Part shown: one piece after another, positions 38,750-56,703 of the stretch
How positions within the stretch are numbered: position 1 is the first letter of the stretch
How the letters are laid out: the number at the start of each line of letters is the position of its first letter
Origin: Pedobacter sp. ASV12
GTDB taxonomy: Bacteria; Bacteroidota; Bacteroidia; Sphingobacteriales; Sphingobacteriaceae
Reading direction: 5' to 3'
Assembly (NCBI RefSeq): GCF_016429155.1
Contig: NZ_JAELUC010000007.1
Span: 1-64,000 of the forward strand
Length of the DNA stretch: 64,000 nucleotides
Made by a program: the position numbers and the translations under genes
The notes under the pieces: model-generated
What the model was told of the DNA's origin: nothing
The model's database searches: none
What the model saw: only the letters and a program-made list of their open reading frames with translations

Positions 38750-40309
38750 ATGAATACCAAACTTAATCTAAAAGGCATCAGCTGTATGCTGGCCTGCTTT
38801 CTATTCGGCTTTTTTGCCAATCCGCTTTGGGCGCAAAAACAAAACAGGCCCAATATTGTGATCATTATTTCAGACGACCATGCCTTGTCTACCATTGGCG
38901 CTTATGGCGCAAAATATGGGGCAAGTCCTCATATCGATCAATTGGCTAAACAAGGGGTAACTTTCACCAATGCCTTTGTCAACAATTCGCTGTGTGCACC
39001 AAGCCGAGCAACCTTGCTTACCGGTAAATACAGCCATGTAAATGGGTTGCGCGATAACCGAGACCAGTTTGATGCGGCACAAGATGTTTTTCCGAGACGC
39101 TTGCAGCAAGCGGGTTTTCAAACGGCATGGATAGGCAAGTGGCATCTGAAGAACTATCCGCAAGGTTTTGATTATTGGAGCATTTTGCCGGATCAAGGTC
39201 AATATTATAACCCAGATTTGATCGGCATGCAGGGAGATACGGTTAGGAAAGAAGGTTATTGTACGGACATCATTACCAACCTGACGGTTGATTGGCTCGA
39301 CAAGCGCGATAAGACCAAGCCTTTTTGCGTCATTATTGGCCAAAAGGCGCCACACCGGCCGTGGATGCCTGATGCGAGGGATTTGAGGCGTTTTGAGCAG
39401 GTTAAATTTGCCTTGCCTCCAAATTTCTACGACGATTATCAAGACCGTATCGCCGCGCAAACCCAAGACATGAGCATAGCCAAAACCATGCAGCTGGGTT
39501 ATGACCTGAAGATGAAAAATGATCCCGCAGATCCTAAAAGCGCCATGAATGCTACCAAACGGATGAACGCCGTGCAACAAAGAGCGTGGAATGCATATTA
39601 TGACTCGGTGCAAAACGACATGGTTAAACAACAGCTGAGCGGAAAGGCCCTGATCGAATGGAAGTACCAGCGCTACATGAAAGACTATTTGGCCACTACG
39701 GTTTCGCTGGATCGAAATATTGGCGAGATTATGGACTACCTGGACAAAAACAAACTGTCTGAAAATACCATTGTGGTGTATACTTCCGATCAAGGCTTTT
39801 ACATGGGCGAGCACGGCTGGTTCGACAAGCGCTTTATGTATGAAGAATCGATGCATGCCCCTTTTATCATGCGTTACCCGAAAGTGGTGAAACCCCATTC
39901 GAAAGTATCGCAATTGGTGTCGAATGTAGATTTTGCGCCTACTTTCCTAGATTTGGCGGGGGTGTCTGTTCCGAAGGAAATCCAGGGCAAATCATTTGTG
40001 CAGGTATTGAAAAACGGCAAAGAGAAAATCAGGGAGTCGGTGTATTACCATTACTACGAATTTCCGGCCGAGCATAGCGTGCGTAAACATTTCGGAATCC
40101 GTACCGATCGTTATAAGCTGATCAGGTTTTATGGACAACAGGATTTTTGGGAGTTTTACGACCTGAAAACAGATCCGCACGAAATGAAGAACCTGTACAA
40201 TGACAAGTCGAAACAAGCATTGATTGCCACCTTAAAAGCAAAACTGCTGGCTTTGACCATCGAAAACAAAGACCAATTGGCCGAGGGGATCTTGAAAAAA
40301 GAAAATTAG
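38750..40309 (+). CDS. sulfatase (S1 family), GlcNAc-6-sulfatase-like
   Basis: 519 residues, signal peptide about 1-28 (LWA-Q). Metal ligands DD at 42-43 (IIISDDHAL), C82-A-P-S-R86 (formylglycine site) in NNSLCAPSRATLLTGKYSHVNG, GKWHL near 127, YTSDQGFYMGEHGWFDKR near 345, and C-terminal RTDRYKLIRFYG ... FWEFYDLKTDPHEMKNL. The layout resembles S1 sulfatases acting on GlcNAc-6-sulfate or similar. It is convergent to the epimerase gene and their ends overlap by four bases. It is not part of the mannan operon by strand; a LacI-type site lies upstream. Substrate unproven. Confidence 0.85.
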   Translation: MNTKLNLKGISCMLACFLFGFFANPLWAQKQNRPNIVIIISDDHALSTIGAYGAKYGASPHIDQLAKQGVTFTNAFVNNSLCAPSRATLLTGKYSHVNGLRDNRDQFDAAQDVFPRRLQQAGFQTAWIGKWHLKNYPQGFDYWSILPDQGQYYNPDLIGMQGDTVRKEGYCTDIITNLTVDWLDKRDKTKPFCVIIGQKAPHRPWMPDARDLRRFEQVKFALPPNFYDDYQDRIAAQTQDMSIAKTMQLGYDLKMKNDPADPKSAMNATKRMNAVQQRAWNAYYDSVQNDMVKQQLSGKALIEWKYQRYMKDYLATTVSLDRNIGEIMDYLDKNKLSENTIVVYTSDQGFYMGEHGWFDKRFMYEESMHAPFIMRYPKVVKPHSKVSQLVSNVDFAPTFLDLAGVSVPKEIQGKSFVQVLKNGKEKIRESVYYHYYEFPAEHSVRKHFGIRTDRYKLIRFYGQQDFWEFYDLKTDPHEMKNLYNDKSKQALIATLKAKLLALTIENKDQLAEGILKKEN

Positions 40310-41511
40310 TCTCCCAAGCTGTCAATTCTTTTGATCAGTTCCATGCAGGCGCGTCCGTTGTGGTAGGGACACTTCCAAAAACCGGCCTTGTCTTCGCCCA
40401 GCATCACGCTGTAATCGCTGCGGAGGCCCCAAAACCATTCGCCGTTTTTTTGGTCTTTCAGGTGTTTTTTTACAAAATCCCATATTTGCAGGGTGTGGCG
40501 CAAAAAGTGCTCGTGCCCGCTGATTTGCCAGGCATTAAAAAAACCGACCATGGCTTCGGCTTGTGGCCACCAATGTAGCTCTTTGACCCAGTGTTTATGG
40601 GCGGGATCGTATTCGTACCAGAGGGCTCCATTTTCATCAAGTCCTTTTAAACTGGCGTTGGCCATTTGCAAGGCCAGTTGTCTGTAATGAACGATGGTCG
40701 TTTCGTTTTTTAAGGCATGCGCGGCTTCTTCGAGCAGCCAGGAGGCTTCAATGTCATGCCCGAAAGAAATCGGGGTCGATTTTACTTTCCAGTCGTTGTC
40801 AAAAAACAGCTGGAGATGAAAGGTATGAGGATGAATAATGTGTTCGCTAAAATTCTGCAGCAGCAACTCGATGGCTTTTTTCAGGATTTCGTTGGGCCAA
40901 ATGCCGTACAGGTTGGCGTAAGCCTCGATGATGTGCAAATGGGTATTCATGGTCTTCTTTTCGTTCTGGTCTTTGGCGCTTAGCCTTTGGTCGGCGATGT
41001 TGGTCCATGCTCTGGTAAATGCTTCAAAATAGCCCAATTGGGTGGGGTCAAAACTGTAGAGCTCGATGAGCCTGAACGTGGCTTTGGCCAAGTCCAAGGC
41101 TTTTGGATTTGCCGTGGCCTTGTAATATTCGGCGAGCGCATAAATGGCAAAGGCCTGCCCATAGATTTGCTTTTTGCCGTCGAGTAGCTGGCCTTTGGCA
41201 TCGACCGACCAATAAAAACCGCCATCAACCTCATCTGTAAAATGCTGTACCAGGTAATCAAATGCACGATGGGCGAGTTCCAAATGGACCGCTTTTTTTT
41301 GAAGCAGATAGGCTGAAGAAAAGGTGTAAAGTATTCTGGCATTAAGCACAAGGCCTTTGGGCGCCTCGGCATTGACTTGGTTCTGATTATCGATTTGCCC
41401 ATAAAAACCACCATTTTCTTGGTCTACCGTATACTTGGCCCACCAGGTGAGCAAATCTTCCAGTTCGGCATTCATTTCCGATTTAAACTGATGCAATGTG
41501 GCGGTATTCAT
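40306..41511 (-). CDS. cellobiose 2-epimerase (AGE family)
   Basis: 401 residues, cytoplasmic (alpha/alpha)6 barrel. Motifs of cellobiose 2-epimerases: GGFYGQID near 33-40, KKQIYGQAFAIYALAEYY, MNTHLHIIEAYANLY, SFGHDIEASWLL with catalytic His, KELHWWPQAEAMVGFFNAW, and the C-terminal GFWKCPYHNGRACMEL with another catalytic His. It converts beta-1,4-mannobiose to beta-mannosyl-1,4-glucose, the substrate of the GH130 enzyme encoded three bases upstream. Last gene of the mannan operon. N-acetylglucosamine 2-epimerases are the nearest alternative, but the WWPQAE and GFWKCPYHN motifs and the operon favour the disaccharide epimerase. Confidence 0.93.
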   Translation of the reverse strand: MNTATLHQFKSEMNAELEDLLTWWAKYTVDQENGGFYGQIDNQNQVNAEAPKGLVLNARILYTFSSAYLLQKKAVHLELAHRAFDYLVQHFTDEVDGGFYWSVDAKGQLLDGKKQIYGQAFAIYALAEYYKATANPKALDLAKATFRLIELYSFDPTQLGYFEAFTRAWTNIADQRLSAKDQNEKKTMNTHLHIIEAYANLYGIWPNEILKKAIELLLQNFSEHIIHPHTFHLQLFFDNDWKVKSTPISFGHDIEASWLLEEAAHALKNETTIVHYRQLALQMANASLKGLDENGALWYEYDPAHKHWVKELHWWPQAEAMVGFFNAWQISGHEHFLRHTLQIWDFVKKHLKDQKNGEWFWGLRSDYSVMLGEDKAGFWKCPYHNGRACMELIKRIDSLGD

Positions 41512-41514
41512 GTA

Positions 41515-42732
41515 TTAATAGGTGGCTTTTCCGTTTAAATTGGCTATAGTTTGAGTGCCGTGCAGGCTTTGATTTGCTTCAATGATGTCGATAATTGTGC
41601 GTACAGAAGTGGCCGAACGCAAGCCATCGGCAGGGTTGTTCATCACGTAATCGGTAAGCTGTTGTATCGTGCTGGTGGCTACATGCATGCGAGTATCTGA
41701 AGAAGCGTAGTAAATATACACCGTTCCGTCTTCATCGGCAATCCAGCCATTGCTAAAGGCTACGTTCGATACATCGCCCACGCGCTCATTACCTTCCGGA
41801 GCCAAAAAGTAGCCGGCAGGCTTGTGCGTAACCTTGGTCAAGTCGTTCAGGTCGGTCATGAACATATAAAGTACATAGCGTAGTCCAGCGGCGGTATTTC
41901 TTACGCCATGCGCCAAATGTAACCAACCTTGCGGCGTTTTGATCGGTGCTGGTCCCAAGCCGTTTTTGGCTTCGTAAACCGTGTGGTAAATTTTTCTGTC
42001 GATTACAGTTTCTTCCTCAATGATGGCGTTTTCGATATTGGCCGCCAAACCAAAGCCAATGCCGCCACCGTTGCCGGCCTCTACAAAGCCATCCTGCGGC
42101 CGGGTGTAAAAAGCATATTTGCCATTCACAAATTCTGGATGCAGCACGACGTTTCTTTGCTGTGGCGACGGCGTTTTCAAATCGGCCAGTCTTTCCCACT
42201 TTACCAGATCCTTGCTCCGGGCGATGCCACATTGGGCGATGGCCGCCGATTGATCGCCTGCTGGAGCCGACTGATCTCTGCGCTCGGTGCAAAAAAGGCC
42301 GTAAATCCAACCGTCTTCGTGTTCAACCAGCCTGATGTCGTACACATTGGTGTCGGGCTCGTCGGTTTCCGGCATTATTACCGGGTAATCCCAAAAGCGG
42401 AAATGGTCTATTCCGTTAGGGCTTTCGGCAATGGCGAAAAACGATTTGCGGTCGGTTCCCTCCACACGGGCCATCAAGATATATCTGCCTTGCCATTTCA
42501 TGGCGCCGGCATTGAGCACGGCGTTGATGCCAAATCTTTCGATCAGGTAGGGATTGCTTAGCGGATTGAGGTCGTATTTCCAGTTGAAAGGAACGTGCGC
42601 GGCGGTAAGTACCGGATGCTGATAGCGGTTAAAAATGCCATTTGCCGTTTCCAGTTTAACATTAGGAGTATTGATCAGTACTTCTTGATCGTGGGCTAAT
42701 TTTGCAATGCGTTGTTCGAAATTTGTATTCAT
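41515..42732 (-). CDS. GH130 4-O-beta-D-mannosyl-D-glucose phosphorylase
   Basis: 405 residues from the ATG at 42732; the frame runs 45 codons further upstream into the symporter gene, but that part has no family resemblance. Five-bladed propeller of GH130 subfamily 1: HPVLTAAHVPFNWKYDLNP, GAMKWQGRYILMARVEGTDRKSFFAIAESPNGIDHFRFW, TNVYDIRLVEHEDGWIYGLFC with the catalytic Asp region, and HGVRNTAAGLRYVLY. Cytoplasmic. With phosphate it splits mannosyl-glucose to mannose 1-phosphate and glucose. Eight bases after the symporter stop and three before the epimerase, exactly the known mannobiose pathway order. Confidence 0.95.
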   Translation of the reverse strand: MNTNFEQRIAKLAHDQEVLINTPNVKLETANGIFNRYQHPVLTAAHVPFNWKYDLNPLSNPYLIERFGINAVLNAGAMKWQGRYILMARVEGTDRKSFFAIAESPNGIDHFRFWDYPVIMPETDEPDTNVYDIRLVEHEDGWIYGLFCTERRDQSAPAGDQSAAIAQCGIARSKDLVKWERLADLKTPSPQQRNVVLHPEFVNGKYAFYTRPQDGFVEAGNGGGIGFGLAANIENAIIEEETVIDRKIYHTVYEAKNGLGPAPIKTPQGWLHLAHGVRNTAAGLRYVLYMFMTDLNDLTKVTHKPAGYFLAPEGNERVGDVSNVAFSNGWIADEDGTVYIYYASSDTRMHVATSTIQQLTDYVMNNPADGLRSATSVRTIIDIIEANQSLHGTQTIANLNGKATY

Positions 42733-42740
42733 GGTATGTG

Positions 42741-44567
42741 TTAGTCTTCTAGTTTGTTCCACCAGGTTCTTTTTAAAATGAAAATAATAACCACCAGCAC
42801 GGCAATGGTGAAGCCCAGGGGCTGGTACATGCCGGTAATGAGGTACATCGGAAATATGGTAAGGCATAATTGGGCAACAATGCCCAGCGCTACGTTAAAC
42901 ATGTCAAGTCCGAAGTTTTTGTTGGCCTTGAAATTGGGGTCTTGGGCAGCTACCAACTGGTGTATGGGTTGCCAAAAGCCCCAGGGCCTTACGGTTCTGT
43001 AAAATGATTGGAGTACTTGCGTGTCTGTTGCAGGGGCGGTGTAGGTACCAATTAGGCAACCGATCAGCGAAAGTACAAACAGCAACGGCCACCAGTATAA
43101 CGGCAATCCGGTGGTTACATAAGGCATCAGCAAGGCGGCGCCAACGCCAACGGCCATACCCCAGAAAAAACCATTGGCATTAAAACGCCACCAGTACCAT
43201 TTGAGGCAGTTGGCGGCTACGTAGCCACCGTACAGGCCGCCTACAATCCATTGCAGAATATCATTGACGTTATGGGCCAAAAAGCCAAAAAATACGCCTA
43301 CTACCACCACCGCAATGCCAACCATATAGTTCATCGACATGATTTTTTTGGTGCTGGCCTGCGGGTTAAGGTATTTCAGGTAAATATCGTTTACAATGTA
43401 GGCCTGTGCAGCATTGAGTGTGCCACTAAAAGTACCCATAAAAGCACCGAGCAAGCCGGTAAGTACCAGGCCCAAAACGCCAACCGGCAAGAAGTTGTTG
43501 ATGGTAGCCGGCAAGATGCGTTCAAAATCGGTAACGCCATCGGGGCCTTTCAGGTAAAGCTGGTTGTAGTAAAGCAGGGCCAGCACGGTTAAGCCGGTAA
43601 TCATAGAGTAGCGAATGGGCAAAAGTACAATGCTCACAAAACCGGTCATTTTGCTGGCTTCCTTGGGGCTGCGCGTACTCAGTACTTTTTGCATGTCGTA
43701 GTTGGGAGCCGGGCCAGCCAGCGAAGCGAAAATGCCCTTCATGAGCATCATCATAAAGAAAATGCCAAACAGACTGAAGCCATCGTCGGCTATTTTTTTG
43801 TTGGCCTCAGCGGCGATCTTGCTCCAGTCGAGGTTTAAATGCCAGCCAAAGAAGGGGTTGTTCCAGCCTTTGGGTACGTTGAGCGATTGATGCTGCAAAT
43901 GCTGTACGGCAATAACGCCAATAGCAATGCAGGCCAAGGTCATGATCAAATATTTAATGGCATCGCCCAGCACAATGCTATGCATGCCTCCCAAAATTGA
44001 ATAGAACATGGCAAAGAGCGTAAAAACGATACCATAGAAATGGGGTACATATTTGTCGGCTACCTGAAAAGGCACATAGTCCTTAATCAAATCCCAAGGC
44101 ACAAAAACCTGTACAAACTTGCCCAAGCCCACAAATCCATAGGCCAAAAAGCCCAGACAGCTGATCAGCGCAAAGGCGATAACCACGATATGCGAACTTT
44201 TGACGCCCTTGCCTTGCAGGCCGAAGCGGGTTTTGAGCCATTCGGCACCGGTTGTTGCGTTCGATCTCCGGAGCCATTTTGACAGGAACATCATCATAAA
44301 CACTTGGTTAAAAACCGGCCATAACCAAGGAATCCAGATACTTTTGAAGCCGTAAACGAAACAAAGAGCTACCATCCACATGGTGCCGCTAATGTCGAAC
44401 ATGTCGCTGGCATCGCTGAGACCCAACATGTACCAAGGCAGTTTTTTGCCACCCATTAGATAGCTTTCCTTGTCTTGCTTGGCTTTGTTTTTCATGTAAA
44501 AGCCAATGAGGATCATGGTAGCCAGATAGGCGAGGAGAATAAGAATGTCGAGGAGATGGAGTTTCAT
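42741..44567 (-). CDS. SSS-family symporter, probable mannobiose/mannooligosaccharide importer
   Basis: 608 residues with about 13-14 membrane helices. SSS features: SYLMGGKKLPWYMLGLSDASDMFDISGTMWMV in the first helices, a long central cytoplasmic loop, and GAFMGTFSGTLNAAQAYIVNDIYLKYLNP near the sodium-binding helix. It is larger than the xylose-type symporter at 32720 and only distantly similar. Its start overlaps the GH26 gene by four bases (ATGA) and its stop is eight bases before GH130. In the Bacteroides mannobiose pathway a cation symporter imports the disaccharide before epimerisation; the position here fits that role. Confidence 0.85.
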   Translation of the reverse strand: MKLHLLDILILLAYLATMILIGFYMKNKAKQDKESYLMGGKKLPWYMLGLSDASDMFDISGTMWMVALCFVYGFKSIWIPWLWPVFNQVFMMMFLSKWLRRSNATTGAEWLKTRFGLQGKGVKSSHIVVIAFALISCLGFLAYGFVGLGKFVQVFVPWDLIKDYVPFQVADKYVPHFYGIVFTLFAMFYSILGGMHSIVLGDAIKYLIMTLACIAIGVIAVQHLQHQSLNVPKGWNNPFFGWHLNLDWSKIAAEANKKIADDGFSLFGIFFMMMLMKGIFASLAGPAPNYDMQKVLSTRSPKEASKMTGFVSIVLLPIRYSMITGLTVLALLYYNQLYLKGPDGVTDFERILPATINNFLPVGVLGLVLTGLLGAFMGTFSGTLNAAQAYIVNDIYLKYLNPQASTKKIMSMNYMVGIAVVVVGVFFGFLAHNVNDILQWIVGGLYGGYVAANCLKWYWWRFNANGFFWGMAVGVGAALLMPYVTTGLPLYWWPLLFVLSLIGCLIGTYTAPATDTQVLQSFYRTVRPWGFWQPIHQLVAAQDPNFKANKNFGLDMFNVALGIVAQLCLTIFPMYLITGMYQPLGFTIAVLVVIIFILKRTWWNKLED

Positions 44568-45697
44568 TTTTTGGCTTGGTATATTTTTAGGGTGCTCAAT
44601 TTTTTCTCGAACAAAATTTTAGGGTTCTGGTAAAATCTTTGAAAGTCGTTGGCCGATGCCTGGCCAGGGTAAGGTGCGTAGTAGTGCATTTTTTTCATGC
44701 TGGGCGAATAGCCGGCGTTGCGCCAAACCAATACATAAGCCACCGGAAAATCTTTGATAACGGGCCATAAAGTTTGGGTCCACCAGTTGGTGTCGGGTAT
44801 GGCCTCGTAACCCGTTTCGGCAAAGGCCATGGGTTTGTGCTTGGCCTTTGCTATTTGGGTGAGCAGCGTCATTTCGTGCCGAACGGCCTTGATGAAGTCT
44901 TTTTGAGGCTGGGTGTCGAATTGATAATGGTCAAAGCTGAGCAGGTCTACCACGTCGTCGCCAGGATAACGTTCCAGGTAAGCCGTCTCGGTAGTAAAAT
45001 CGTTGGTGTTGTAAACCACGATAAGGTTATGCAATTGCTTTTCGGCTCTTAAATAGTTGATGGTAAAGCGCCAGGCTGCCTTGAGTTGTGCAGGGGTTGA
45101 CGTTTTGCTGCCCCACCAAAACCAATCGCCAGTGAGTTCGTGGAATGGCCTGAACAGGATAGGGATGGCTTCGCCTTTGGGACCTTGGAGACTGTGCATG
45201 AAGCGGGCTGCTTTATCGAGCCACGATTTGTAAAGCTCGTGTTTGGCGCCTCCCGGCAAGATAGAGGCCACTGCATTTTGGGTAGTATCCCAAGATGAAC
45301 CACCGCTTAACGGATTGTTGAAATGCCAGCTTAGGGTAATGATGCCCCCACGTTGATAGCCTTCTTTAATGTATTTCCGCATCTTTTCGAATGGCACACC
45401 ATCAATGTTATTGGCCGAATCGAGTTCAATGCGGGCCATGTCCCAGCCGTATACTGCAGGATAATCGTTTACAACGGCTTTGATATCGCTTTTGCCGTTA
45501 ACGTATTTCCAGTTTACGCCGTAGGCCAAGTCATCCTGATGGCCAAACAAGGTATGTTTTTGGCTGAGCCGATAGAGGTTTTTATACAGTATTTGGGTAG
45601 TTGCCGTGGCTCGCGCATCGCTCAGTTGCTGGGCTTTTGCCCACCACGAAAGCAGGCAAAGGGCAAGGGTAGCTAAATAGGATCGGTGTATCTTCAT
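44564..45697 (-). CDS. GH26 endo-beta-1,4-mannanase / mannobiohydrolase
   Basis: 377 residues, Sec signal peptide about 1-22 (AKA-Q), no lipobox. TIM barrel of GH26: KHTLFGHQDDLAYG near 48-60, acid/base E187 in LFRPFHELTGDWFWWG, SFDHYQF near 254-260, nucleophile E294 in MAFAETGYE, and VLVWRNAGY near the end. The HExTGxWFWWG and AETGY motifs are diagnostic. Cuts beta-1,4-mannan in the periplasm or outside to mannobiose or short oligosaccharides. No carbohydrate-binding module is attached. In the middle of the mannan operon. Confidence 0.95.
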   Translation of the reverse strand: MKIHRSYLATLALCLLSWWAKAQQLSDARATATTQILYKNLYRLSQKHTLFGHQDDLAYGVNWKYVNGKSDIKAVVNDYPAVYGWDMARIELDSANNIDGVPFEKMRKYIKEGYQRGGIITLSWHFNNPLSGGSSWDTTQNAVASILPGGAKHELYKSWLDKAARFMHSLQGPKGEAIPILFRPFHELTGDWFWWGSKTSTPAQLKAAWRFTINYLRAEKQLHNLIVVYNTNDFTTETAYLERYPGDDVVDLLSFDHYQFDTQPQKDFIKAVRHEMTLLTQIAKAKHKPMAFAETGYEAIPDTNWWTQTLWPVIKDFPVAYVLVWRNAGYSPSMKKMHYYAPYPGQASANDFQRFYQNPKILFEKKLSTLKIYQAKK

Positions 45698-45708: not shown

Positions 45709-46794
45709 TTATTTGGGGGAGAGTACTTCTTTGATGGGTTTTCCTATTTCGTGGCCATTCTCGAATTTGACTCCTAAAAACGAAGCAATGGTTTGGGCAA
45801 GTTGGTTTTGGTACAGTTGGCCTTTTTGCTTCACTTCGCCCAGGGGCTTGGTATCGGGGCCCATCACGGCCAAAAATATTTCGTTAGAGTGGGGTACGCT
45901 ATAATAATGGTGTTGCCAGTTGTCTTCGTAGCCTCGGCCATGGTCTTCGGTAATGATAAAGGTGGTTTGGTCTTTGTAAAACGGATCGCTCTGCATGTAG
46001 TTCCATAAATCGGCAATCATGGCATCGTTGTAATTGGCGGCATCTAAATAATAATCGTATTTGCCACTGTGGGCCAAAGCATCGGTTTCGATAAAGCTCA
46101 GTTGCAAAACCCTCGGATGGTTCAATTTTACGTATTCCTTGGCCAAAGCATAGGTAATGCCGTCGTGTCGCTCACCACCTCCATAATCTTTGGGCAACCA
46201 ATGCTGCAGGTCGTTCAGTGCCTTTTGTACCTCGCTTAACTTGTCGCCTTTTACATTGTTGAAACCCGAGTTGATGGGGAAGCCCGAACGTTCAGCGTTC
46301 AGGATTTTATAAAAAGCATCCCACGAGGTAAAAGTAGCCACTTTGCCTTTAAACTCGGGTAATTTGTTCAGAAACTCCAGCACATTGATGTTGTGGTTGG
46401 CCGGATGCGAATTGGAATTGATCAGCGTATCGGGATAGCCCGTAAATATTTCGTTGTAGCCAGGGTACGAAAACCAATAGCGGTTGGTTACATTAACCAT
46501 GTTACCGTAGTTGCGGTCACCATAAATCTGTCCATGCTTGGCCAGGTAATTCCAAAAGAAGGGCATGAGTTTTGCCCTTCTTTGGTTGAGGTCTGTGCTC
46601 CAGTACTTGCGTACGCGCCAAGCTGAGTCCTGCGAGGTGAATTTCTTGCCAAACAGGTTGCTCGAATCGGCACCATTAAACAAATCCTTCCAGCGGTAGC
46701 CATCAAAAGTAATGACCACCACGTTTCGGGTTCGTTGTGCAAAGCTGGTTTGCAAGCCCAGCAATAGGCAAATGGTAACTAAAACTAAACGCAT
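45709..46794 (-). CDS. secreted alkaline-phosphatase-superfamily hydrolase (phosphodiesterase/phosphatase-like)
   Basis: 361 residues, signal peptide 1-19 (SFA-Q). Alkaline phosphatase/nucleotide pyrophosphatase fold: metal ligand D31 in VVVITFDGYRW, likely nucleophile S109 in WFSYPGYNEIFTG (at the place of the Thr/Ser in nucleotide pyrophosphatases), LSFIETDALAHSGKYDYY with ligand Asp and His, and FIITEDHGRGYEDNWQHHYY with ligands D and H. No CxPSR motif, so not a sulfatase. It lies inside the mannan operon, 11 bases before GH26 and seven after the glycan-binding lipoprotein. Mannan itself has no phosphate, so it may remove a phospho-substituent from mannan or a phosphorylated side product. 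Substrate unknown. Confidence 0.8.
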   Translation of the reverse strand: MRLVLVTICLLLGLQTSFAQRTRNVVVITFDGYRWKDLFNGADSSNLFGKKFTSQDSAWRVRKYWSTDLNQRRAKLMPFFWNYLAKHGQIYGDRNYGNMVNVTNRYWFSYPGYNEIFTGYPDTLINSNSHPANHNINVLEFLNKLPEFKGKVATFTSWDAFYKILNAERSGFPINSGFNNVKGDKLSEVQKALNDLQHWLPKDYGGGERHDGITYALAKEYVKLNHPRVLQLSFIETDALAHSGKYDYYLDAANYNDAMIADLWNYMQSDPFYKDQTTFIITEDHGRGYEDNWQHHYYSVPHSNEIFLAVMGPDTKPLGEVKQKGQLYQNQLAQTIASFLGVKFENGHEIGKPIKEVLSPK

Positions 46795-46801
46795 CTGTTT
46801 C

Positions 46802-49497: not shown

Positions 49498-52400
49498 TTA
49501 AAAACTGCAGCGTAGCGACAGGTTATAGGTTCTTGAATTAGGGTAGCCGCCGAGGTCGACGCCAAACAGCGCAGGATTATCGCCATAGCTGTTGATTTCA
49601 GGATCATAGCCAGAATAGTTGGTGAAAGTAAACAGGTTGTTTACACCAAAGGCCACCCTGAGCGACTTCACCGTTTTTGAAGTAATAGGCACATTGTAGC
49701 CCAGTGTGACGTTTTTGATGCGTACAAAGCTGCCATCCTCAATAAATCTTCTGCTAAACAACTGGTTCCTGAAAAACTGGCGCATGATTTTAGGGCCGGT
49801 AGCTTGGCTGTTGTCTTTGCCCTGTGCCCAGGCGCCATCAAACATATCCTGGGTGATGTTTTTGTTGGTGCCCAGGTTGCCGTTAAAACGGGTGTTCATG
49901 TTGATGATGTCGTTGCCCTGCACCCCATTGATAAAGATGCTCAGGTCAAAGCGCTTGTAGCGGAAATTGTTCGTAAAGCCAAAGGTGTAATCCGGATTGA
50001 CGTCGCCAATAAAGGTGCGATCGGTTTGCGAAATGCTGGTTGGATCGTTGTCCAGATTCTTATACTTGATTTCGCCAATGGTTCGCAAAATAATGGCGTC
50101 GCTTTGGTTCGCATAAGCCGGATCGTTTCTTACCTCGGCTTCATTGTCGTAATAGCCATCTTCTACATAGCCATAAAGTGCGCCGATGGGTTTGCCTACG
50201 GTTTGGATAAATGGCGCATCGCCGGTAGAAATGTTGCGGCCATACTGCTCGGTTACATCTTTGCTCAGGCTCAGGATCTTGTTACGGTTAAACGAGACGT
50301 TAAAGTTCGAGCTCCATTCGAAATCTTTTTTCTTGATGATAGCGCCCTCTAAAATTACTTCCAGACCCCTGTTTTGGATCGAGCCCGAGTTAACCAGCTT
50401 GGTTTGAAAACCTGTTGAAGAAGGGATAATCAGGTTCTGCAACAGGTCGTTGGTAATTTTTTTATACAAGTCTACATGCAGGTTCAGCCTGCTTTTGAAC
50501 ATGCTTAAATCCAAGCCGAGGTTGTAGGCTGTGGTGGTTTCCCATTTCAGTTTTTCGTTGGCCGGTCCGGCATACAGATCATTGGCCAAGCCTGTTTGTA
50601 CGGCGCCGCCAAAAGGATAGTTGTATACGCTCAGCTTAGCCAGCGAGGCATAAGAGCCAATGCCTTGGTTACCGGTTTGCCCGTAGCTGAAGCGTGCCTT
50701 AAGCTCGTTGATGACCTTGAGGTTTTTCATGAAATCTTCGTTAGAGACTTTCCAGGCCACACCAGCCGATGGAAAACCCGCCCATTTGTTGTCTTTGCCA
50801 AACTTGCTCGAACCATCCTGGCGATAAGAAACGGTTAGGAGGTAACGGTCGTCATAGCTGTAGTTGGCACGGCCCAAAAACGAAATCAGCGTAGATTGAT
50901 ACCTGTTGGTGATAACCGGCAACACGGTTTCGCCCGCGGCCAGGTTTTCGTTTTCCAAGGCATCGTTAGGGAACGTTTTAGCTTCGGCCCTTTTGCTTTG
51001 GCCGTTGGTGCGCTCGAAGGTGCCGGCACCCATTACATTAAGGCTATGCTTGTTGAGCTGTTTGTTGTAGGTCAAAATACTTTCGGCAACGCCACTGTTC
51101 CATAAATTGTCTGATTTGAGGCCCCAGCCTTTCACGGCAAAGCCTTCGTAAACGCTTCGTGGGTAATATTGGTCCCTATTGCTCGAAGCATAGTTGAAGC
51201 CAATGTTCTGCCTAAACTTGAAGTCTTTGAGGAAAGTAGCTTCCAGGTAGTTGGAAGAAAAGATATTTAATCCCTTGACGCGGTTCAGCACATCGTTTAC
51301 ATAGATTTGCGGATTGGTAATAAAGGCATCGCCTACACCATCGTAAGCCAAAGCATCGGTTAGCGTAGAAGGAAAAGTGATGGCCGCACGGATTACACCC
51401 GCACTGGCGGCATCAGATTTGTCGGTGCCTGTTTTAACGCCGTTGGTTGTAGAACTGGCAATAGACGTGCTGGTGCCTATTTTAATCGTTTTACTGATGT
51501 TCCGGGTCAGGTTCATGCTCAAGCCGAAACGGTTGTAGTCTGAGTTGGAAATGGTGCCTTCCTGGTTAAGGTAGCTGAAAGTTAGGCTGTGGCTGCCTGC
51601 ATCGGTGCCTCCCGAAACGTTGATCGAGTAGTTTTGGTAAAGGCCTTTGCGAAAAATACGGTCCTGCCAAGAATTGTTGTCGCCAACAAAATCCTGTGGA
51701 CCTCTGGCATAATAAGTATGGCCAGGATTTAAAGGATCGGGCAGTTGCGTGCCTGGATAGGGCAAGGTATAATTGGTGCCGGTGTATTTGTTGGAGTTGG
51801 CATAGGCCAGGTTTTGGTAAGTGGCATATTCAGCAGGATTCAAAACATCGAGGGTTTTTGAAACTTCGGCCTGTCCCACCGTAAAATTGGCTTCGATCCT
51901 GTCTTTGCCGCTTTTGCCTTTTCTGGTGGTAATGAGCACTACGCCATTGGCGCCACGCGATCCGTAAATGGCTGTGGCCGAAGCATCTTTCAGGATGTCG
52001 ATGGTTTCGATGTCGTTGGGGTTGAGGAAAGACATGGCATTCAAGGTCTGTTTTTCATCATCGCCGATTGAAGCCGGCGTAGAACCGCTGCTCGAATTGT
52101 TGAAAGGTACGCCGTCGATTACATAAAGTGGCTCGGTTCCCCCTAAAAAGGAGTTGGACCCCCTAATTCGGAGGCTTAATCCGGCACCAGGCGCGCCGTC
52201 GTTTTGGGTTACATTAACACCCGCTACTTTCCCCTGCAGCGCCTGCAACACATTGGTTGGCGCATCGGTAAGCAGCTGATCTCTCCCAATTCGGGTAACC
52301 GAACCGGTAAGATCGGTTTTTTTCACGGTGCCATAGCCTACAATCACCACATCGGAAAGCATGGTGCTTTTGGTTTTTAATACCATGTTGAATGTGGTTC

Positions 52401-52671
52401 TGGTGCCGATGGTGGCTTCTTGCTCTTCCATTCCTAAAAAGGTGAAAACAAGCGTTTGGGCATTGGCGGGCACATTGATCGCAAAGTTTCCTTCTGCATC
52501 GGTGCTTACCGAAGTTTTGCTTCCCTTTACGCTTACCGAAACGCCCGGAAGCGTTAGCCCGTTTTCGTCGCTTACCTTTCCGCTAAGCCTTCTGTCTTGT
52601 GCGAAACAGGTGGCGAAAGCTAGGAAACATACAAGTGCAGCCAATAAATGTTTGGTTACTTTATTCAGCAT
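49498..52671 (-). CDS. SusC/RagA-family TonB-linked outer-membrane transporter
   Basis: 1057 residues, signal peptide about 1-24. Carboxypeptidase-like regulatory domain (about 28-105), TonB box near DVVIVGYGT, plug domain (about 115-230: TDLTGSVTRI ... AIYGSRGANGVVLITTRKGK), then a 22-strand-type barrel to the terminal aromatic Phe (LSLRCSF). Imports oligosaccharides with SusD. No anti-sigma-interacting N-terminal extension, so control is not by an ECF sigma pair but probably by the divergent AraC regulator. First gene of the mannan operon; promoter at about 52694-52701. Confidence 0.97.
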   Translation of the reverse strand: MLNKVTKHLLAALVCFLAFATCFAQDRRLSGKVSDENGLTLPGVSVSVKGSKTSVSTDAEGNFAINVPANAQTLVFTFLGMEEQEATIGTRTTFNMVLKTKSTMLSDVVIVGYGTVKKTDLTGSVTRIGRDQLLTDAPTNVLQALQGKVAGVNVTQNDGAPGAGLSLRIRGSNSFLGGTEPLYVIDGVPFNNSSSGSTPASIGDDEKQTLNAMSFLNPNDIETIDILKDASATAIYGSRGANGVVLITTRKGKSGKDRIEANFTVGQAEVSKTLDVLNPAEYATYQNLAYANSNKYTGTNYTLPYPGTQLPDPLNPGHTYYARGPQDFVGDNNSWQDRIFRKGLYQNYSINVSGGTDAGSHSLTFSYLNQEGTISNSDYNRFGLSMNLTRNISKTIKIGTSTSIASSTTNGVKTGTDKSDAASAGVIRAAITFPSTLTDALAYDGVGDAFITNPQIYVNDVLNRVKGLNIFSSNYLEATFLKDFKFRQNIGFNYASSNRDQYYPRSVYEGFAVKGWGLKSDNLWNSGVAESILTYNKQLNKHSLNVMGAGTFERTNGQSKRAEAKTFPNDALENENLAAGETVLPVITNRYQSTLISFLGRANYSYDDRYLLTVSYRQDGSSKFGKDNKWAGFPSAGVAWKVSNEDFMKNLKVINELKARFSYGQTGNQGIGSYASLAKLSVYNYPFGGAVQTGLANDLYAGPANEKLKWETTTAYNLGLDLSMFKSRLNLHVDLYKKITNDLLQNLIIPSSTGFQTKLVNSGSIQNRGLEVILEGAIIKKKDFEWSSNFNVSFNRNKILSLSKDVTEQYGRNISTGDAPFIQTVGKPIGALYGYVEDGYYDNEAEVRNDPAYANQSDAIILRTIGEIKYKNLDNDPTSISQTDRTFIGDVNPDYTFGFTNNFRYKRFDLSIFINGVQGNDIINMNTRFNGNLGTNKNITQDMFDGAWAQGKDNSQATGPKIMRQFFRNQLFSRRFIEDGSFVRIKNVTLGYNVPITSKTVKSLRVAFGVNNLFTFTNYSGYDPEINSYGDNPALFGVDLGGYPNSRTYNLSLRCSF

Positions 52672-52693
52672 AAGTCGTTTTATTTGGTTTACT

Positions 52694-52701
52694 CAAAAGT
52701 A
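52694..52701 (-). promoter_or_regulatory. -7 box of the susC promoter
   Basis: On the minus strand TACTTTTG, a full TAnnTTTG match, 23-30 bases before the susC ATG. No TTG is at the proper -33 distance, which fits a promoter that needs an activator; the AraC-type site at 52726-52747 begins about 25 bases upstream of the box. Confidence 0.6.
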
Positions 52702-52725
52702 GGGCGCAATATAACGCAATGAATA

Positions 52726-52747
52726 ATACTATTTTATCCATTTATAG
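52726..52747. promoter_or_regulatory. candidate AraC site in front of susC
   Basis: ATACTATTTTATCCATTTATAG. The first 16 positions occur again with one change at 52855-52870. It also holds one arm of the 7-bp inverted repeat AATACTA (52725-52731) / TAGTATT (52745-52751). Position just upstream of the -33 region of susC is that of an activator site. Confidence 0.65.
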
Positions 52748-52816
52748 TATTTTTATCGCTATGTTATACCCCGTTTTAAAATTTGAATTACTTTAGTGGT
52801 TGTAATCAGGTTTTTA

Positions 52817-52848
52817 TTGATGATTTACGGCAGGTTGCCTTATATTTG
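52817..52848 (+). promoter_or_regulatory. promoter of the araC-type gene
   Basis: TTG at 52817-52819, a 21-base spacer, TATATTTG at 52841-52848 (full TAnnTTTG match). Expected start of transcription near 52853, about 45 bases before the GTG start codon. Confidence 0.6.
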
Positions 52849-52854
52849 ATTGTG

Positions 52855-52874
52855 ATATTATTTTATCCATATAG
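52855..52874. promoter_or_regulatory. candidate AraC site in front of its own gene
   Basis: ATATTATTTTATCCATATAG, matching the site at 52726 (ATAyTATTTTATCCAT). It lies right at and after the expected transcription start of the araC-type gene, which would fit negative autoregulation. Confidence 0.6.
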
Positions 52875-52897
52875 TTGATGTTATTTATTCATTTATC

Positions 52898-53773
52898 GTG
52901 CAGAACAATATAATCAAAGAAATAACCCCGCTAACCAATAGCGATTGTTTCACCATTTTCGAGCGGACAAAAAAGGATTTCGATTTCCCTTTGCATTACC
53001 ACGAAGAAATGGAATTGAACTTTATTTCGAATGCCGGCGGCGCCCGTAGGGTAGTTGGCGACCATATTGAAGAAATAACCGATATCGAACTCGTGCTCAT
53101 TGGCTCAAACCTGCCCCATGTTTGGGAAACCCATAAACTGGCCGGCAAGGAAATACATGAGGTAACCATCCAGTTTCATAAGGATCTTTTTGACGAAAAG
53201 CTGTTGCGCCGAAACCAATTGAGGGTGATTAGGGAAATGTTCGAAAAATCGAAATGCGGTATTTTGTTTTCGGCCGCCACGGCACAGCAGATCGGTCCGC
53301 GTTTAGTCCAGTTGAATAAAAAACATGGTTTTGACTCGGTACTCGAGCTCATGTCTATCCTGCACGACCTTTCTACTTCTCGAAACATGCGCACCCTGTC
53401 TGACTCGACCTTTAGCCAGGCCGAATTTTCGTACAGCAGCCGCAGGGTAGAAAAGGTAATGGAATACATCAATTTCAATTTCGATAAACAGGTAACCTTA
53501 GGAGAGGTGGCACGCATTGCCAACATGACCGAGGTATCGTTCAGCCGGTTTTTCAAAAGTAGAACGGGCGTAAGCTTCATCGATAGCCTCATCGAAATCA
53601 GGCTGGGTCATGCTTCCCGCAAGCTGATCGATACCACCGAGGCAGTTGCCGAAGTGGCTTATAACTGCGGTTTTAACAACATCTCTAACTTTAACCGCAT
53701 TTTTAAAAAGAAAAAAGGCTGTACGCCAAAAGAATTTAGAGAGAACCTGTCTGGCAACCGAATTTTTGTATAA
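52898..53773 (+). CDS. AraC-family transcriptional regulator of the mannan locus
   Basis: 291 residues, starting at a GTG (52898); no in-frame ATG lies between the upstream stop and the first domain. N-terminal cupin-like sensing domain (about 15-110: FPLHYHEEMELNFISNAGG, where HYHEEMEL is the sugar-binding or metal-like motif), C-terminal HTH_18 (about 185-285) with VTLGEVARIANMTEVSFSRFFKSRTG and VAEVAYNCGFNNISNFNRIFKKKKGCTPKEFR. Divergent from susC, with shared sequence elements in between, so it most likely activates the mannan operon on binding a mannose-derived sugar. The next gene starts one base after its stop. Confidence 0.88.
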   Translation: MQNNIIKEITPLTNSDCFTIFERTKKDFDFPLHYHEEMELNFISNAGGARRVVGDHIEEITDIELVLIGSNLPHVWETHKLAGKEIHEVTIQFHKDLFDEKLLRRNQLRVIREMFEKSKCGILFSAATAQQIGPRLVQLNKKHGFDSVLELMSILHDLSTSRNMRTLSDSTFSQAEFSYSSRRVEKVMEYINFNFDKQVTLGEVARIANMTEVSFSRFFKSRTGVSFIDSLIEIRLGHASRKLIDTTEAVAEVAYNCGFNNISNFNRIFKKKKGCTPKEFRENLSGNRIFV

Positions 53774-53774
53774 G

Positions 53775-54848
53775 ATGAAAAACTTTTTTTTGATACTGGC
53801 TTTAGGGATGATGGCCTTGGCTGGTCGGGCCAATCCTGCAGGAAACAAATTTTATACGGCCGATCACCAATATATCCAATACACGGGCCGGTTCGACTTT
53901 TCCAATCAGCTGCGGCCAAAGGTTTGGGCCTCGGGTGCCTACGTGGTGATCCGGTTCAAAGGACCCTCGTGTATGGTGCAGCTCAACGACGAAATGCTAT
54001 GGGGCACGGTGCATAATTACATCGAAGTAATTGTTGATGGTCAGCCGGCCCGTAGGTTACAGCTCAAAGGGAGAGAAAATACACTGGAATTGGCCAAAGA
54101 TCTTTCGCCTGGCGTGCATACGCTACTCATTTGCAAAGATACGGAGGCCGAAAATGGTTATATCGAACTCCTGGGCTTTTCTTGCCGCGAATTGTTGCCT
54201 CCACCAACCAAGGCCAAGCGCAAGCTTGAATTTATCGGCGATTCGATTACCTGTGGCTTTGGTGCCGACGAAAGCGCAATCAAATGTGGTGCACCTCATG
54301 CGCAGTGGTACGACCAGCACAATGCCTGGATGGCTTATGGGCCTACCACCGCACGCAGCCTTAATGCGCAATGGCACTTGTCGTCGGTTTCGGGCATAGG
54401 TTTGATCCATAGTTGCTGCGATAAGCAAATACTGATGCCCCAGGTGTTTGACAAGGTCAGCATGGCTAAAGATAGCCTGAAATGGAACTTTGCCAATTAC
54501 CAACCCGATGTGGTAACGGTGTGTTTGGGCCAAAACGATGGCATACAAGATTCGGCCAAGTTCTGCAATGCCTATGTCGGTTTTGCCAAAACCCTGCGCA
54601 GCTATTACCCTCAAGCCAAATTGGTGTTTTTAACTAGCCCAATGGCCGACCAGGCACTCAAAACGGCATTAATAAAGTACATTACGGCTGTTCGGGCCAC
54701 TTTAAACAGCCAAGGCGAACGCAATACAGGGTCTTATTTTTTTGTAAAGCGATCTATAAAAGGCTGTAGCAGCCACCCTTCGATGGCCGAACAGCAAGAA
54801 ATAGCCCAAGAACTCACCACTTACCTTAAAAAGGAGATGAAATGGTAA
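53775..54848 (+). CDS. CE2-like carbohydrate esterase (SGNH fold)
   Basis: 357 residues from the ATG at 53775, which begins a signal peptide (about 1-19). N-terminal jelly-roll domain (about 25-140: YIQYTGRFDFSNQLRPKVWASGAYVVIRF) and C-terminal SGNH hydrolase (about 150-357) with S157 in EFIGDSITCGFG, CLGQNDG (Asn block) and C-S-S-H-P-S at the end carrying the catalytic His. CE2 enzymes work with a Ser-His dyad and deacetylate xylan and glucomannan. One base after the AraC stop, so co-transcribed. In this place it probably strips acetyl groups from acetylated mannan before or after GH26. Confidence 0.85.
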   Translation: MKNFFLILALGMMALAGRANPAGNKFYTADHQYIQYTGRFDFSNQLRPKVWASGAYVVIRFKGPSCMVQLNDEMLWGTVHNYIEVIVDGQPARRLQLKGRENTLELAKDLSPGVHTLLICKDTEAENGYIELLGFSCRELLPPPTKAKRKLEFIGDSITCGFGADESAIKCGAPHAQWYDQHNAWMAYGPTTARSLNAQWHLSSVSGIGLIHSCCDKQILMPQVFDKVSMAKDSLKWNFANYQPDVVTVCLGQNDGIQDSAKFCNAYVGFAKTLRSYYPQAKLVFLTSPMADQALKTALIKYITAVRATLNSQGERNTGSYFFVKRSIKGCSSHPSMAEQQEIAQELTTYLKKEMKW

Positions 54849-56044
54849 GGTTTATGCTATTGCTTTGTTTGGCTTGCTGTGCAAATTCCCTGCAGGGGCA
54901 GGAATTGTTCAGGATGAAAAGTGGCGTAAATTCTCGCTTAATCAGCTTCGAAAATATGAGCGGAGCCAAAGGCAGTGGAGGCAAGGAAAATAATGGCGCT
55001 AAAGGCCATGCTACCGAGACAATTTTTCCTGGAAAGAGCAGGACTATTGTCGACTACCTGGGGACGGGAATTGTGCAACGTATTTGGTGCACCATTAGCG
55101 AGCGTAGTCCAGAAGTGTTGCGTTCTATCCGTATCCAAATGTATTGGGATGGAGATGCCAAACCAGCAGTGGATGTGCCTATTGGCGACTTTTTTGGATT
55201 GGGTTTGGGGCAGAAGCGGCCTTTCGAATCGGTTTTTTTTAGCGATGCAGAGGGTAAATCCTTCAATTGCTTTATTCCGATGCCTTTTCGCAAGCAGGCC
55301 AAAATCATTTTTGTAAACGAGAGTCGGCTTCAAGTGAACCTTTTTTATGATGTTGCCATTTTAGAAACGGCACCACATCAGGATGATGTTCTTTATTTTC
55401 ATGCTTATTGGAGTAGAAAAATCAAAGCCGATCTGGGTGAAGATTTTGAGATATTGCCAAAAATTACTGGGAAGGGACGCTTTTTAGGGACTAATATTGG
55501 CGTTATTGCCGATTCGCTATATCAAGGTACTTGGTGGGGCGAGGGCGAAGTAAAAATGTATATCGACGAAGATGGTCCCTACCCAACTATCAATGGAACA
55601 GGTACTGAAGATTATGTAGGCGCAGCCTGGGGCTTAGGAACATTTAACCATCAATATCAAGGCTGTTTAATTGCCGATAATAAAATGGGCTATTTTGCAT
55701 TTTATAGGTATCACGTACCAGACGAGATCTACTTTACCCAGAGCATGCGGGTCACCATTCAAGAATTAGGCGGTTCGAGTTTAGAAACCGCGAGGGCTTT
55801 GCTGAGCAAAGGGGTAAAAATGAAACCGGTAATTGCCAATTCTAAAATTGGTTATTTGAAACTGAATGCCATGAATCCCGCTCCGCATTTAAGTGATGAA
55901 CAATTTCGTCCAGGTGGCGTTTTATTCTATCGCATTGACGATTATTCGGCCACGAGTTATTTTTATCTTAACCAAACCAGTAACAATTTACCAGCTCTAC
56001 AGCCATTAGCTATACGTACACAACAATTAAAAACCATAAAATAA
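54842..56044 (+). CDS. GH172 (DUF2961) protein
   Basis: 400 residues, signal peptide about 1-20 (LQG-Q). The DUF2961 pattern is clear: SRLISFENMSGAKGSGGKENNGAKG near 17-41, IVQRIWCTISERSPEVLRSIRIQMYWDGD, VDVPIGDFFGLGLGQ, FNCFIPMPFRKQAKI, and GEGEVKMYIDEDGPYPTINGTGTEDYVGAAWG with two acidic residues expected to be catalytic (DEDG and GTGTEDY). GH172 members act on D-arabinofuranosides or D-fructofuranosides, with trimeric jelly-roll assembly. Overlaps the CE2-like gene by seven bases. Target side chain here is uncertain; alpha-D-arabinofuranose is not a usual mannan substituent. Confidence 0.88.
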   Translation: MVRFMLLLCLACCANSLQGQELFRMKSGVNSRLISFENMSGAKGSGGKENNGAKGHATETIFPGKSRTIVDYLGTGIVQRIWCTISERSPEVLRSIRIQMYWDGDAKPAVDVPIGDFFGLGLGQKRPFESVFFSDAEGKSFNCFIPMPFRKQAKIIFVNESRLQVNLFYDVAILETAPHQDDVLYFHAYWSRKIKADLGEDFEILPKITGKGRFLGTNIGVIADSLYQGTWWGEGEVKMYIDEDGPYPTINGTGTEDYVGAAWGLGTFNHQYQGCLIADNKMGYFAFYRYHVPDEIYFTQSMRVTIQELGGSSLETARALLSKGVKMKPVIANSKIGYLKLNAMNPAPHLSDEQFRPGGVLFYRIDDYSATSYFYLNQTSNNLPALQPLAIRTQQLKTIK

Positions 56045-56049
56045 TCCCG

Positions 56050-56703
56050 ATGAAAAGATTTCTTTTATTCTTCTTGCTGATCAGTTCGTTTGTAACGGTA
56101 AATGCTCAAAACGATCCTTTCTTAAACGAAATTAAGTACTTTAAAAAACAGGATAGCCTGCATTTTCCGCCTAAAAAAGCCATTTTGTTTATTGGCAGCT
56201 CTACTTTTACCAAATGGAAAGATGTACAGGACTATTTTCCGGGCCATACCATCATTAACCGTGGTTTTGGAGGCTCTTCCTTGCCCAATGTGATCCAACA
56301 TGCCAACGATATCATTTTTCCTTACCAGCCTAAGCAGATTGTAATTTATTGTGGCGAGAACGATTTTACAGGTGGCGACCATATCACGGCCGACACCGTA
56401 ACAACGCGTGTCAAACAACTCATTGAACTGATCAGAACCAAATATCCGAGGGTGCCAATCGCTTATATTTCGATTAAGCCAAGTCCTTCAAGGCTCAAAT
56501 ACCAGGCTAAAATGATTGAAGCCAATGGCATGATAGCCAAAATGGCTAAAAAAATGAGAAGGGTAACCTTTATCAATACCTACAATTCGATGTTCAATGC
56601 TGATGGAAGTATAATGCAGGACATCTTCTTGTCGGATAACCTGCACATGAACGCCAAAGGTTATGCCATCTGGCAAAAAATTATAGAACCTTATTTGAAA
56701 TAA
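56050..56703 (+). CDS. SGNH/GDSL-family hydrolase, probable acetyl esterase
   Basis: 217 residues, signal peptide 1-20 (VNA-Q). SGNH blocks: block I FIGSSTF with S51, GFGGSSLPN (block II Gly), YCGENDF (Asn block III), and DNLHMNAKGY (block V D-x-x-H). Complete Ser-Asp-His triad. Small single-domain enzyme as in rhamnogalacturonan or sialate/xylan acetyl esterases. Five bases after GH172, third enzyme of the araC-led unit; it would be a second deacetylase next to the CE2-like enzyme. Alternatives such as lysophospholipase cannot be excluded. Confidence 0.82.
   Translation: MKRFLLFFLLISSFVTVNAQNDPFLNEIKYFKKQDSLHFPPKKAILFIGSSTFTKWKDVQDYFPGHTIINRGFGGSSLPNVIQHANDIIFPYQPKQIVIYCGENDFTGGDHITADTVTTRVKQLIELIRTKYPRVPIAYISIKPSPSRLKYQAKMIEANGMIAKMAKKMRRVTFINTYNSMFNADGSIMQDIFLSDNLHMNAKGYAIWQKIIEPYLK

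Follow-up and report, generated by a model that had tools for sequence, protein, structure and literature searches.

Beta-mannan utilization has been described in several Bacteroidota, and we compare with these systems as far as the accessible parts of their published descriptions allow. The system of Bacteroides fragilis combines a GH26 enzyme giving mannobiose with an epimerase and a mannosylglucose phosphorylase (PMC13276840). The beta-mannan polysaccharide utilization locus (PUL) of Muricauda sp. MAR_2010_75 holds an AraC-type factor, GH26, GH130, a symporter, an epimerase and a predicted esterase (PMC9860051), and BoManPUL of Bacteroides ovatus has a BoMan26A-type GH26, glycan-binding proteins and mannobiose as product (PMC5217682). 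By homology, these features recur in a locus of Pedobacter sp. ASV12, which we studied in the interval 38750-56703 of a 64,000-nucleotide stretch (the window; contig C381 of a 403-contig assembly, 93.8% complete). It is built from two divergent arms, a minus-strand run from SusC to an epimerase and a plus-strand run from an AraC-type regulator to an SGNH esterase. In our view the locus probably serves the use of beta-mannan or glucomannan fragments, which are probably acetylated, with both arms under one AraC signal.

Gene layout and the mannan core

Genes were called from open reading frames (ORFs) and Pfam matches, and the starts of the GH130 and CE2 genes were judged by eye. The interval comprises the following genes:

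49498..52671, minus: SusC-type TonB-dependent transporter (Pfam Plug, CarbopepD_reg_2, TonB_dep_Rec; 78-84% identity in seven relatives)
47863..49479, minus: SusD-type surface glycan-binding lipoprotein (SusD_RagB 6.4e-34)
46802..47830, minus: IPT/TIG lipoprotein, probably surface glycan-binding, with a C-terminal CBM29/CBM8-like beta-sandwich (TIG 1.4e-13)
45709..46794, minus: alkaline-phosphatase-superfamily hydrolase (AP-like), accessory (fold and invariant residues)
44564..45697, minus: GH26 beta-mannanase of the 4zxo/CjMan26C type (Pfam 1.3e-48; 4zxo 1.3e-103)
42741..44567, minus: SSS symporter, presumed disaccharide importer (SSF 3.1e-21; 85-90% identity in seven relatives)
41515..42732, minus: GH130 4-O-beta-D-mannosyl-D-glucose phosphorylase (3was 1e-176, 5ay9 5.6e-154)
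40306..41511, minus: AGE-superfamily cellobiose 2-epimerase (9l8i 2.2e-112, 3wkf 4.7e-112)
52898..53773, plus: AraC-type regulator, 291 residues, GTG start (HTH_18 2e-22; 88-92% identity in seven relatives)
53775..54848, plus: CE2 acetylesterase (CE2_N 1.8e-28; 2wao 4.1e-41)
54842..56044, plus: GH172 (DUF2961) exo-furanosidase-type enzyme (DUF2961 2.8e-67; 8ic8 6.3e-38)
56050..56703, plus: SGNH esterase, 217 residues, partner of GH172 (Lipase_GDSL_2 9.8e-15)
38750-40309, plus: sulfatase (PF00884; CAPSR at residue 82, CxPSR motif intact)

From SusC to the epimerase the minus arm has gaps of 18, 32, 7, 11, 8 and 3 bases and a single 4-base overlap, and from AraC to SGNH the plus arm has a gap of 1, an overlap of 7 and a gap of 5 bases. 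The probable start of GH130 is at 42732 (the mechanical ORF begins at 42867), and CE2 likely starts with the ATG at 53775, its mechanical ORF beginning further upstream. Since the minus-strand core order is identical in seven relatives, and also in the covered part of a locus (L222) from a Pedobacter metagenome-assembled genome (MAG), the layout is not due to chance. A sequence-only reading of this interval had listed the genes of both arms with positions, gaps and overlaps that agree throughout with the open frames and Pfam; all the genes it named are present, but the plus-strand sulfatase at the interval start was left out. The sulfatase meets the end of the epimerase gene in tail-to-tail orientation and was rejected as a member of the locus, as it was not found beside the epimerase in any of six relatives for which the far flank was read.

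Judged by the homology of its products, the minus arm is a beta-mannan/glucomannan utilization locus. A SusC/SusD pair is clustered with GH26, as expected of a Bacteroidota beta-mannan PUL, and the mannobiose branch, i.e. cellobiose 2-epimerase, mannosyl-glucose phosphorylase and symporter, is present by homology. The two mannosyl-glucose phosphorylases matched by GH130 (1e-176 and 5.6e-154) are far ahead of the next entry (6.5e-27). The epimerase matches cellobiose 2-epimerases in the Protein Data Bank (PDB), with an NCBIfam EpiA score of 388.9 bits that lies below the 800-bit cut-off. Together with the GH26 matches, these results support by homology the previously proposed route from mannan through mannobiose and mannosyl-glucose to mannose 1-phosphate.

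The GH26 enzyme is closest to 4zxo, which we take to be BoMan26A, and to CjMan26C. Its residues Glu187 and Glu294 sit in the catalytic motifs and are presumably the catalytic residues. Loop 2 is retained without gaps, and the loop 2 residues of 4zxo agree with those given for BoMan26A in the accessible text of PMC5217682, according to which BoMan26A yields mainly mannobiose and a loop blocks the site past subsite -2. The Arg/Glu latch of loop 8, however, is replaced in the window enzyme and in the ten aligned orthologues, and exo action is therefore likely but not assured.

In the TIG lipoprotein, Cys25 is invariant in 11/11 sequences. Its structural model (pLDDT 84.3, pTM 0.54) has SGBP-B-type proteins of xyloglucan and mixed-linkage glucan loci as top Foldseek matches and CBM8 and CBM29 lower down, one of the matched CBM29 entries being a complex with mannohexaose. 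Because of the pTM of 0.54 and a full-length root-mean-square deviation (rmsd) above 10, the domain-level match alone was used. On this model the protein is a probable surface glycan-binding protein with a CBM29-like end domain.

The divergent promoter and the AraC regulator

The SusC and AraC genes are separated by a divergent promoter of 226 bp (52672-52897). Footprinting by conservation indicated a likely operator there, in the form of two 15-base sites, both of which occur in 8/8 close loci. The elements of the promoter are:

52694..52701, minus: -7-like box of the SusC promoter, TACTTTTG (TAnnTTTG), kept as TAnnTTTG in 8/8 loci
52724..52757, plus: operator-like site 1, TAATACTATTTTATC followed by a weaker second half; first half in 8/8 close loci
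52841..52848, plus: -7-like box of the AraC promoter, TATATTTG, present in 7/8 loci (not in genome G110)
52853..52890, plus: operator-like site 2, TGATATTATTTTATC followed by TGATGTTATTTATTC with period 23; first half in 8/8 close loci

TAnnTTTG is the -7 consensus of Bacteroidota. Site 1 is located 22 bases upstream of the SusC -7-like box, and 4 bases separate site 2 from the AraC -7-like box upstream of it; these positions suggest that the sites mediate activation of SusC and autoregulation of AraC, respectively. For site 2, a period of 23 is best or joint best in 6/8 loci, and the second half of site 1 is at best 9-11/15 alike, with no fixed period. Direct repeats are also the form of hybrid two-component system and SusR-like sites in Bacteroides, by the part of PMC3878776 that was accessible.

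A matrix was made from the two sites and, with a fixed threshold, scored in the same direction upstream of other AraC orthologues. Matches were found in 37 of 55 orthologues against 0.53 expected from dinucleotide shuffles, with 5/55 in the reverse direction, and 26 of the 40 orthologues fetched after the threshold had been set match. A further 20 orthologues gave 14 matches against 0.13 expected from simple shuffles (reverse, 1/20), which brings the total to 51/75 in the same direction versus 6/75 in reverse. A clean split of the motif by genus was considered and rejected: the first 18/18 misses, and none of the matches, fell in genus g14, but among the orthologues added later 7/11 from g14 and 7/9 from other genera match. 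The split by genus is a tendency, not a rule. At two loci (L143 in G148 and L287 in G006) the motif stands upstream of AraC in both directions with 16.3-19.2 bits each, unlike at most loci.

We likewise rejected a genome-wide AraC regulon, as a strict form of the pattern gave 22 matches away from the locus in eight genomes, compared with 29 for a reversed-pattern control. The own genome has 4 strict matches, two of them at the locus, versus 2 in the control, and inspection by eye of five stretches with the motif elsewhere revealed no gene visibly linked to mannan. Since single genome-wide matches do not rise above the control, AraC seems to be a switch for this one locus.

Hybrid two-component systems are the better-known regulatory model. 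The regulator of this locus is a protein of 291 residues that does not unite a periplasmic sensor, kinase, receiver and AraC-type helix-turn-helix in one chain; of the Pfam families, HTH_18 and HTH_AraC alone match, in keeping with an AraC/XylS domain. As it has only a DNA-binding domain and no membrane sensor by Pfam, it looks cytosolic and should respond to a cytosolic ligand. It is also the most conserved among the compared proteins in all seven relatives (88-92%).

Co-location was counted in 251 same-family genomes, including the window's own, as strong matches no more than 20 kb apart, with up to nine AraC candidates scored per genome. An AraC orthologue lies within this distance of GH26 in 66 of the 72 genomes holding both. 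Among six inspected loci from genomes without a strong GH26, the regulator adjoins the epimerase and/or GH130 in five (L133-L136 and L142, but not L143), which suggests the imported disaccharide as its ligand. An AraC-type switch for this locus is thus common within the family. For Muricauda, moreover, the published beta-mannan PUL already includes an AraC-type factor, as the accessible part of that description states (PMC9860051), so that the claim that an AraC regulator in place of a hybrid system is unusual here did not hold. The other regulatory claim, that AraC controls both arms, fared better: one AraC switch is well supported, though not proven, by the paired operator-like sites in the divergent promoter. 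A second AraC protein, 63% identical, is encoded beside five GH5 matches in G105 (contig C16, 20741-40676); its upstream region scores 10.0, below the motif threshold, and this copy may regulate a separate cluster for mannan or glucan.

Accessory genes of the two arms

We compared nine close loci, namely the window, seven relatives and the partly covered MAG locus L222. All of them have the mannan core as far as it is covered. CE2 occurs in 8/9 (it is absent in G140), the AP-like gene is an open frame in 7/9, a remnant in G118 and absent in G110, and GH172 and SGNH are found in 4/9 and absent in the other 5. The GH172-SGNH pair and the AP-like gene are accessory add-ons that were gained or lost within the clade. 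In the SusC tree G115, which has GH172, stands beside G118, which lacks it (support 98/96), and the window, G227 and the MAG are grouped apart from these two with 93/93, below the support mark; the AraC tree did not resolve. Because the SusC tree separates G115 from the other GH172 carriers, repeated loss or two gains of GH172 are possible instead of a single gain.

The CE2 protein combines a CE2_N domain with an SGNH domain bearing the motifs GDSI 155, GQND 252 and SSHPS 332, as expected for the family, and its NCBIfam AxeC2 score of 145.6 bits is below the 500-bit cut-off. It lies within 20 kb of GH26 in 25 of the 46 genomes with both and is a usual companion of mannan genes.

GH172 matches DUF2961 with 227.1 bits (cut-off 27). 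Its residues E234 and E256 align with the catalytic Glu pair in 8ah3 and are invariant in 8/8 relatives; in DgGH172c this pair is E233/E254 (PMC10115798). The characterised GH172 enzymes cleave alpha-D-arabinofuranosides and alpha-D-fructofuranosides, according to the accessible portions of PMC10115798, PMC10509167 and PMC8605356. The SGNH protein retains S50, G75, N104, D196 and H199 in 13/13 sequences, and its PDB matches are generic SGNH hydrolases. Of the 22 same-family genomes that have both genes, only 3, one of them the window's own, have GH172 within 20 kb of GH26. When a clade alignment was scanned against named genomes and the loci of the best 80 of 221 relatives were kept, some of them with short flanks, mannan genes flanked GH172 in three of these (L147, L148 and L222, all Pedobacter). 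GH172 as a fixed member of mannan loci was rejected on these counts. Nor did GH172 hold up as an indicator of a D-arabinose pathway: one relative (L129) stands next to an L-fucose-isomerase-family gene, but 0 of the best 80 loci have that isomerase in the flanks covered.

SGNH relatives are found in 13 of the best 80 GH172 loci, 8 of which have GH3, 7 a GH43 relative and 4 GH97 (in L188 the domains were confirmed by Pfam). The eight loci with GH172, SGNH and GH3 belong mostly to Chitinophagaceae and form one-strand runs with GH172 in which adjacency is not constant. No GH26 was seen in the flanks of these GH3/GH43 operons. As the pair thus occurs apart from mannan genes, GH172-SGNH appears to be a portable module joined to the AraC-CE2 arm. 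The proposal that the second arm deacetylates the polymer is supported in part: CE2 fits it, but GH172 is a glycosidase family and GH172-SGNH occurs elsewhere without mannan genes. That GH172 in a mannan locus is unusual, as had been stated, agrees with its presence in 3/22 genomes and 4/9 close loci and with the lack of mannan neighbours elsewhere in the loci examined.

The AP-like protein narrowly misses two Pfam cut-offs (22.3 versus 24.3 and 21.3 versus 23 bits) and has no PDB match by sequence up to E = 1. Nevertheless, its earlier naming as an AP-superfamily hydrolase is confirmed by the fold: the model (pLDDT 91.7) aligns with PafA at Z 29.3 (299 aligned, rmsd 3.4) and with NPP enzymes at Z of about 26 in VIA-align. 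This result is clear; the query-normalised Foldseek TM-scores were modest, at 0.43-0.61 among the 50 matches listed. D31, S109, D238, H242, D284, H285 and H296, which we take to be the metal ligands and the nucleophile (Ser109), are invariant in 20/20 sequences, so that fold and full residue set place the protein in the alkaline phosphatase superfamily. On the model it is a probable periplasmic hydrolase of phosphoric or other esters, likely with Ser109 as nucleophile. It is encoded within 20 kb of GH26 in 7 of the 31 genomes with both. In G118 a decayed AP-like remnant lies between TIG and GH26 (L062:11530-11840), indicating loss within the clade. The own genome has a second AP-like gene, 50% identical (G000, contig C166, 51297-52361; L075), and the 11 kb read around this copy gave no match to the mannan proteins of the window.

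Two loci from sister genera (L138 and L139) combine the AraC-GH26-SSS-GH130-epimerase genes with another SusC/D set and further genes; L138 additionally has GH27, a GH5-like gene and a further GH26 whose signal is lipobox-like, i.e. a fuller galactomannan version. Elsewhere in the window, 17903-28327 on the plus strand encodes a GH2 beta-galactosidase, GH27, an M60-like peptidase, GH95 and a second sulfatase and looks like another glycan cluster. A likely xylose operon occupies 32720-38561 on the minus strand, with an SSS symporter, a xylose-isomerase-like protein (Pfam score just below the cut-off), an FGGY kinase and a LacI regulator.

Rival readings and comparison with known systems

With gene identities, catalytic residues, synteny, accessory-gene distribution and conserved sites in hand, we infer substrate, inducer, DNA binding, direction of regulation and localization as follows. 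SusC, SusD and the TIG/CBM29-like lipoprotein would bind oligosaccharides and bring them into the periplasm, where CE2, perhaps aided by the SGNH enzyme, would strip acetyl groups and GH26 would cleave the chains to mannobiose and mannosyl-disaccharides, which the symporter would carry to the cytosol. There the epimerase would convert mannobiose into mannosyl-glucose, and GH130 would use phosphate to give mannose 1-phosphate and glucose. AraC, sensing the imported disaccharide in the cytosol, would activate SusC at site 1 and tune its own operon at site 2, so that both arms follow one signal. GH172-SGNH and the AP-like gene may strip further substituents.

Several results weigh against this scheme. 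The loss of the loop 8 latch in GH26 leaves mannobiose release not assured. No lipoprotein endomannanase was found in the own genome by the searches, which covered GH26 and PF00150. The AraC orthologue occurs in 36 genomes without strong GH26, and 17 genomes have GH26 without AraC. Of the 75 orthologues, 24 lack a same-direction motif match (22 of these in g14), and the shuffle expectations ignore kinship among the orthologues. Finally, the strict pattern in eight genomes gave 35 matches, 13 of them at the locus and 22 elsewhere, compared with the 29 of the control.

The description of the locus as complete is doubtful in particular. GH26 has one match in the own genome, and its signal peptide is present, but no clear lipobox was recognised by eye, as all signal peptides and lipoboxes were judged, in the window enzyme or in ten orthologue N-termini; some orthologues have a Cys within the signal stretch. 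With a single GH26 and no clear lipobox, the BoManPUL-type pairing of a surface lipoprotein endo-mannanase with a periplasmic mannanase is not seen, and no alpha-galactosidase lies within the locus (a GH27 gene is found at 21135-22340, 18 kb past its end). "Complete" is therefore too strong, and a locus importing oligosaccharides produced elsewhere fits as well. Such a locus, taking manno-oligosaccharides freed by others and unable to open the polymer, is a credible alternative, albeit not the favoured one. It agrees with the lone GH26 and with the lack of a PF00150 match in 4/8 genomes carrying the locus; the own genome has one such GH5, on contig C110. Yet GH26 might leave the cell by another route, a probable surface-binding lipoprotein is present, other mannanases would have escaped searches limited to two families, and the assembly is incomplete.

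Two further possibilities concern the plus arm and the accessory genes. AraC could run the SusC-to-epimerase arm and itself, with CE2-GH172-SGNH read through constitutively or for another glycan, as GH172 and SGNH stand in GH3/GH43 operons elsewhere and, unlike AraC, CE2 and GH172 are not constant among the close loci. We regard this as unlikely, for the plus arm is a tight run behind AraC, and just before AraC a -7-like box stands in 7/8 loci and site 2 in 8/8. The substrate might instead be a mannan substituted with furanosyl groups and with phosphate or other esters, which would make GH172, SGNH and AP-like needed, not optional. Their catalytic residues are intact, and the AP-like gene lies within 70 bp of GH26 in six of the seven genomes that have both inside 20 kb. 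This seems improbable all the same, with the AP-like gene absent or decayed in two relatives and GH172-SGNH missing from 5/9 close loci that retain the mannan core wherever covered. Thus, we prefer the reading of a mannan-fragment locus under one AraC signal. Within it, the idea that GH172-SGNH, and perhaps the AP-like enzyme, attack undescribed mannan substituents such as acylated furanosyl side groups is a long shot; if true, enzymes of a GH172 clade in which no characterised member is known would debranch mannan under an AraC switch sensing a cytosolic disaccharide.

The following comparisons again rest on the accessible parts of the sources. Beyond the features described for the B. fragilis system, the Pedobacter locus has SusC/D and the binding lipoprotein in one run, the AraC-CE2-GH172-SGNH arm and the AP-like gene; a complementary mannan esterase pair is known in Bacteroides (PMC13276840). 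Marine Muricauda strains have at least two GH26, a putative GH5 and a GH27 (PMC9860051), whereas the Pedobacter locus has one GH26 and neither GH5 nor GH27, with GH172-SGNH added; that part of the Muricauda PUL description makes no mention of GH172. BoManPUL has the surface endo-mannanase BoMan26B, GH36 and a predicted periplasmic regulator (PMC5217682), none of which was found in the Pedobacter locus. The Pedobacter GH172 shares the DUF2961 domain and the catalytic Glu pair with the exo-alpha-D-arabinofuranosidases DgGH172 and ExoMA1 and with alphaFFase1, but these act on mycobacterial D-arabinan or difructose anhydride, whereas it lies in a mannan locus. No characterised GH172 was found that is as close as the clade's own relatives. 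A GH172 in an inulin-type PUL (PMC9905522) and a fructofuranosidase label (PMC11748540) are leads only.

Neither GH172 in a beta-mannan locus nor a TAATACTATTTTATC-like operator was found described in the accessible, mostly open-access literature on mannan PULs, AraC and GH172. As far as these searches show, the predicted operator is new, as are the added GH172-SGNH and AP-like genes, and this is otherwise largely an ordinary mannan locus of known kind with a rarely seen extra enzyme pair. It offers a concrete candidate operator for an AraC-type regulator found alongside beta-mannan genes throughout one bacterial family. The occurrence in a mannan locus of GH172, so far tied in that literature to D-arabinan and fructan, suggests either a new specificity or a mannan decoration not yet described.

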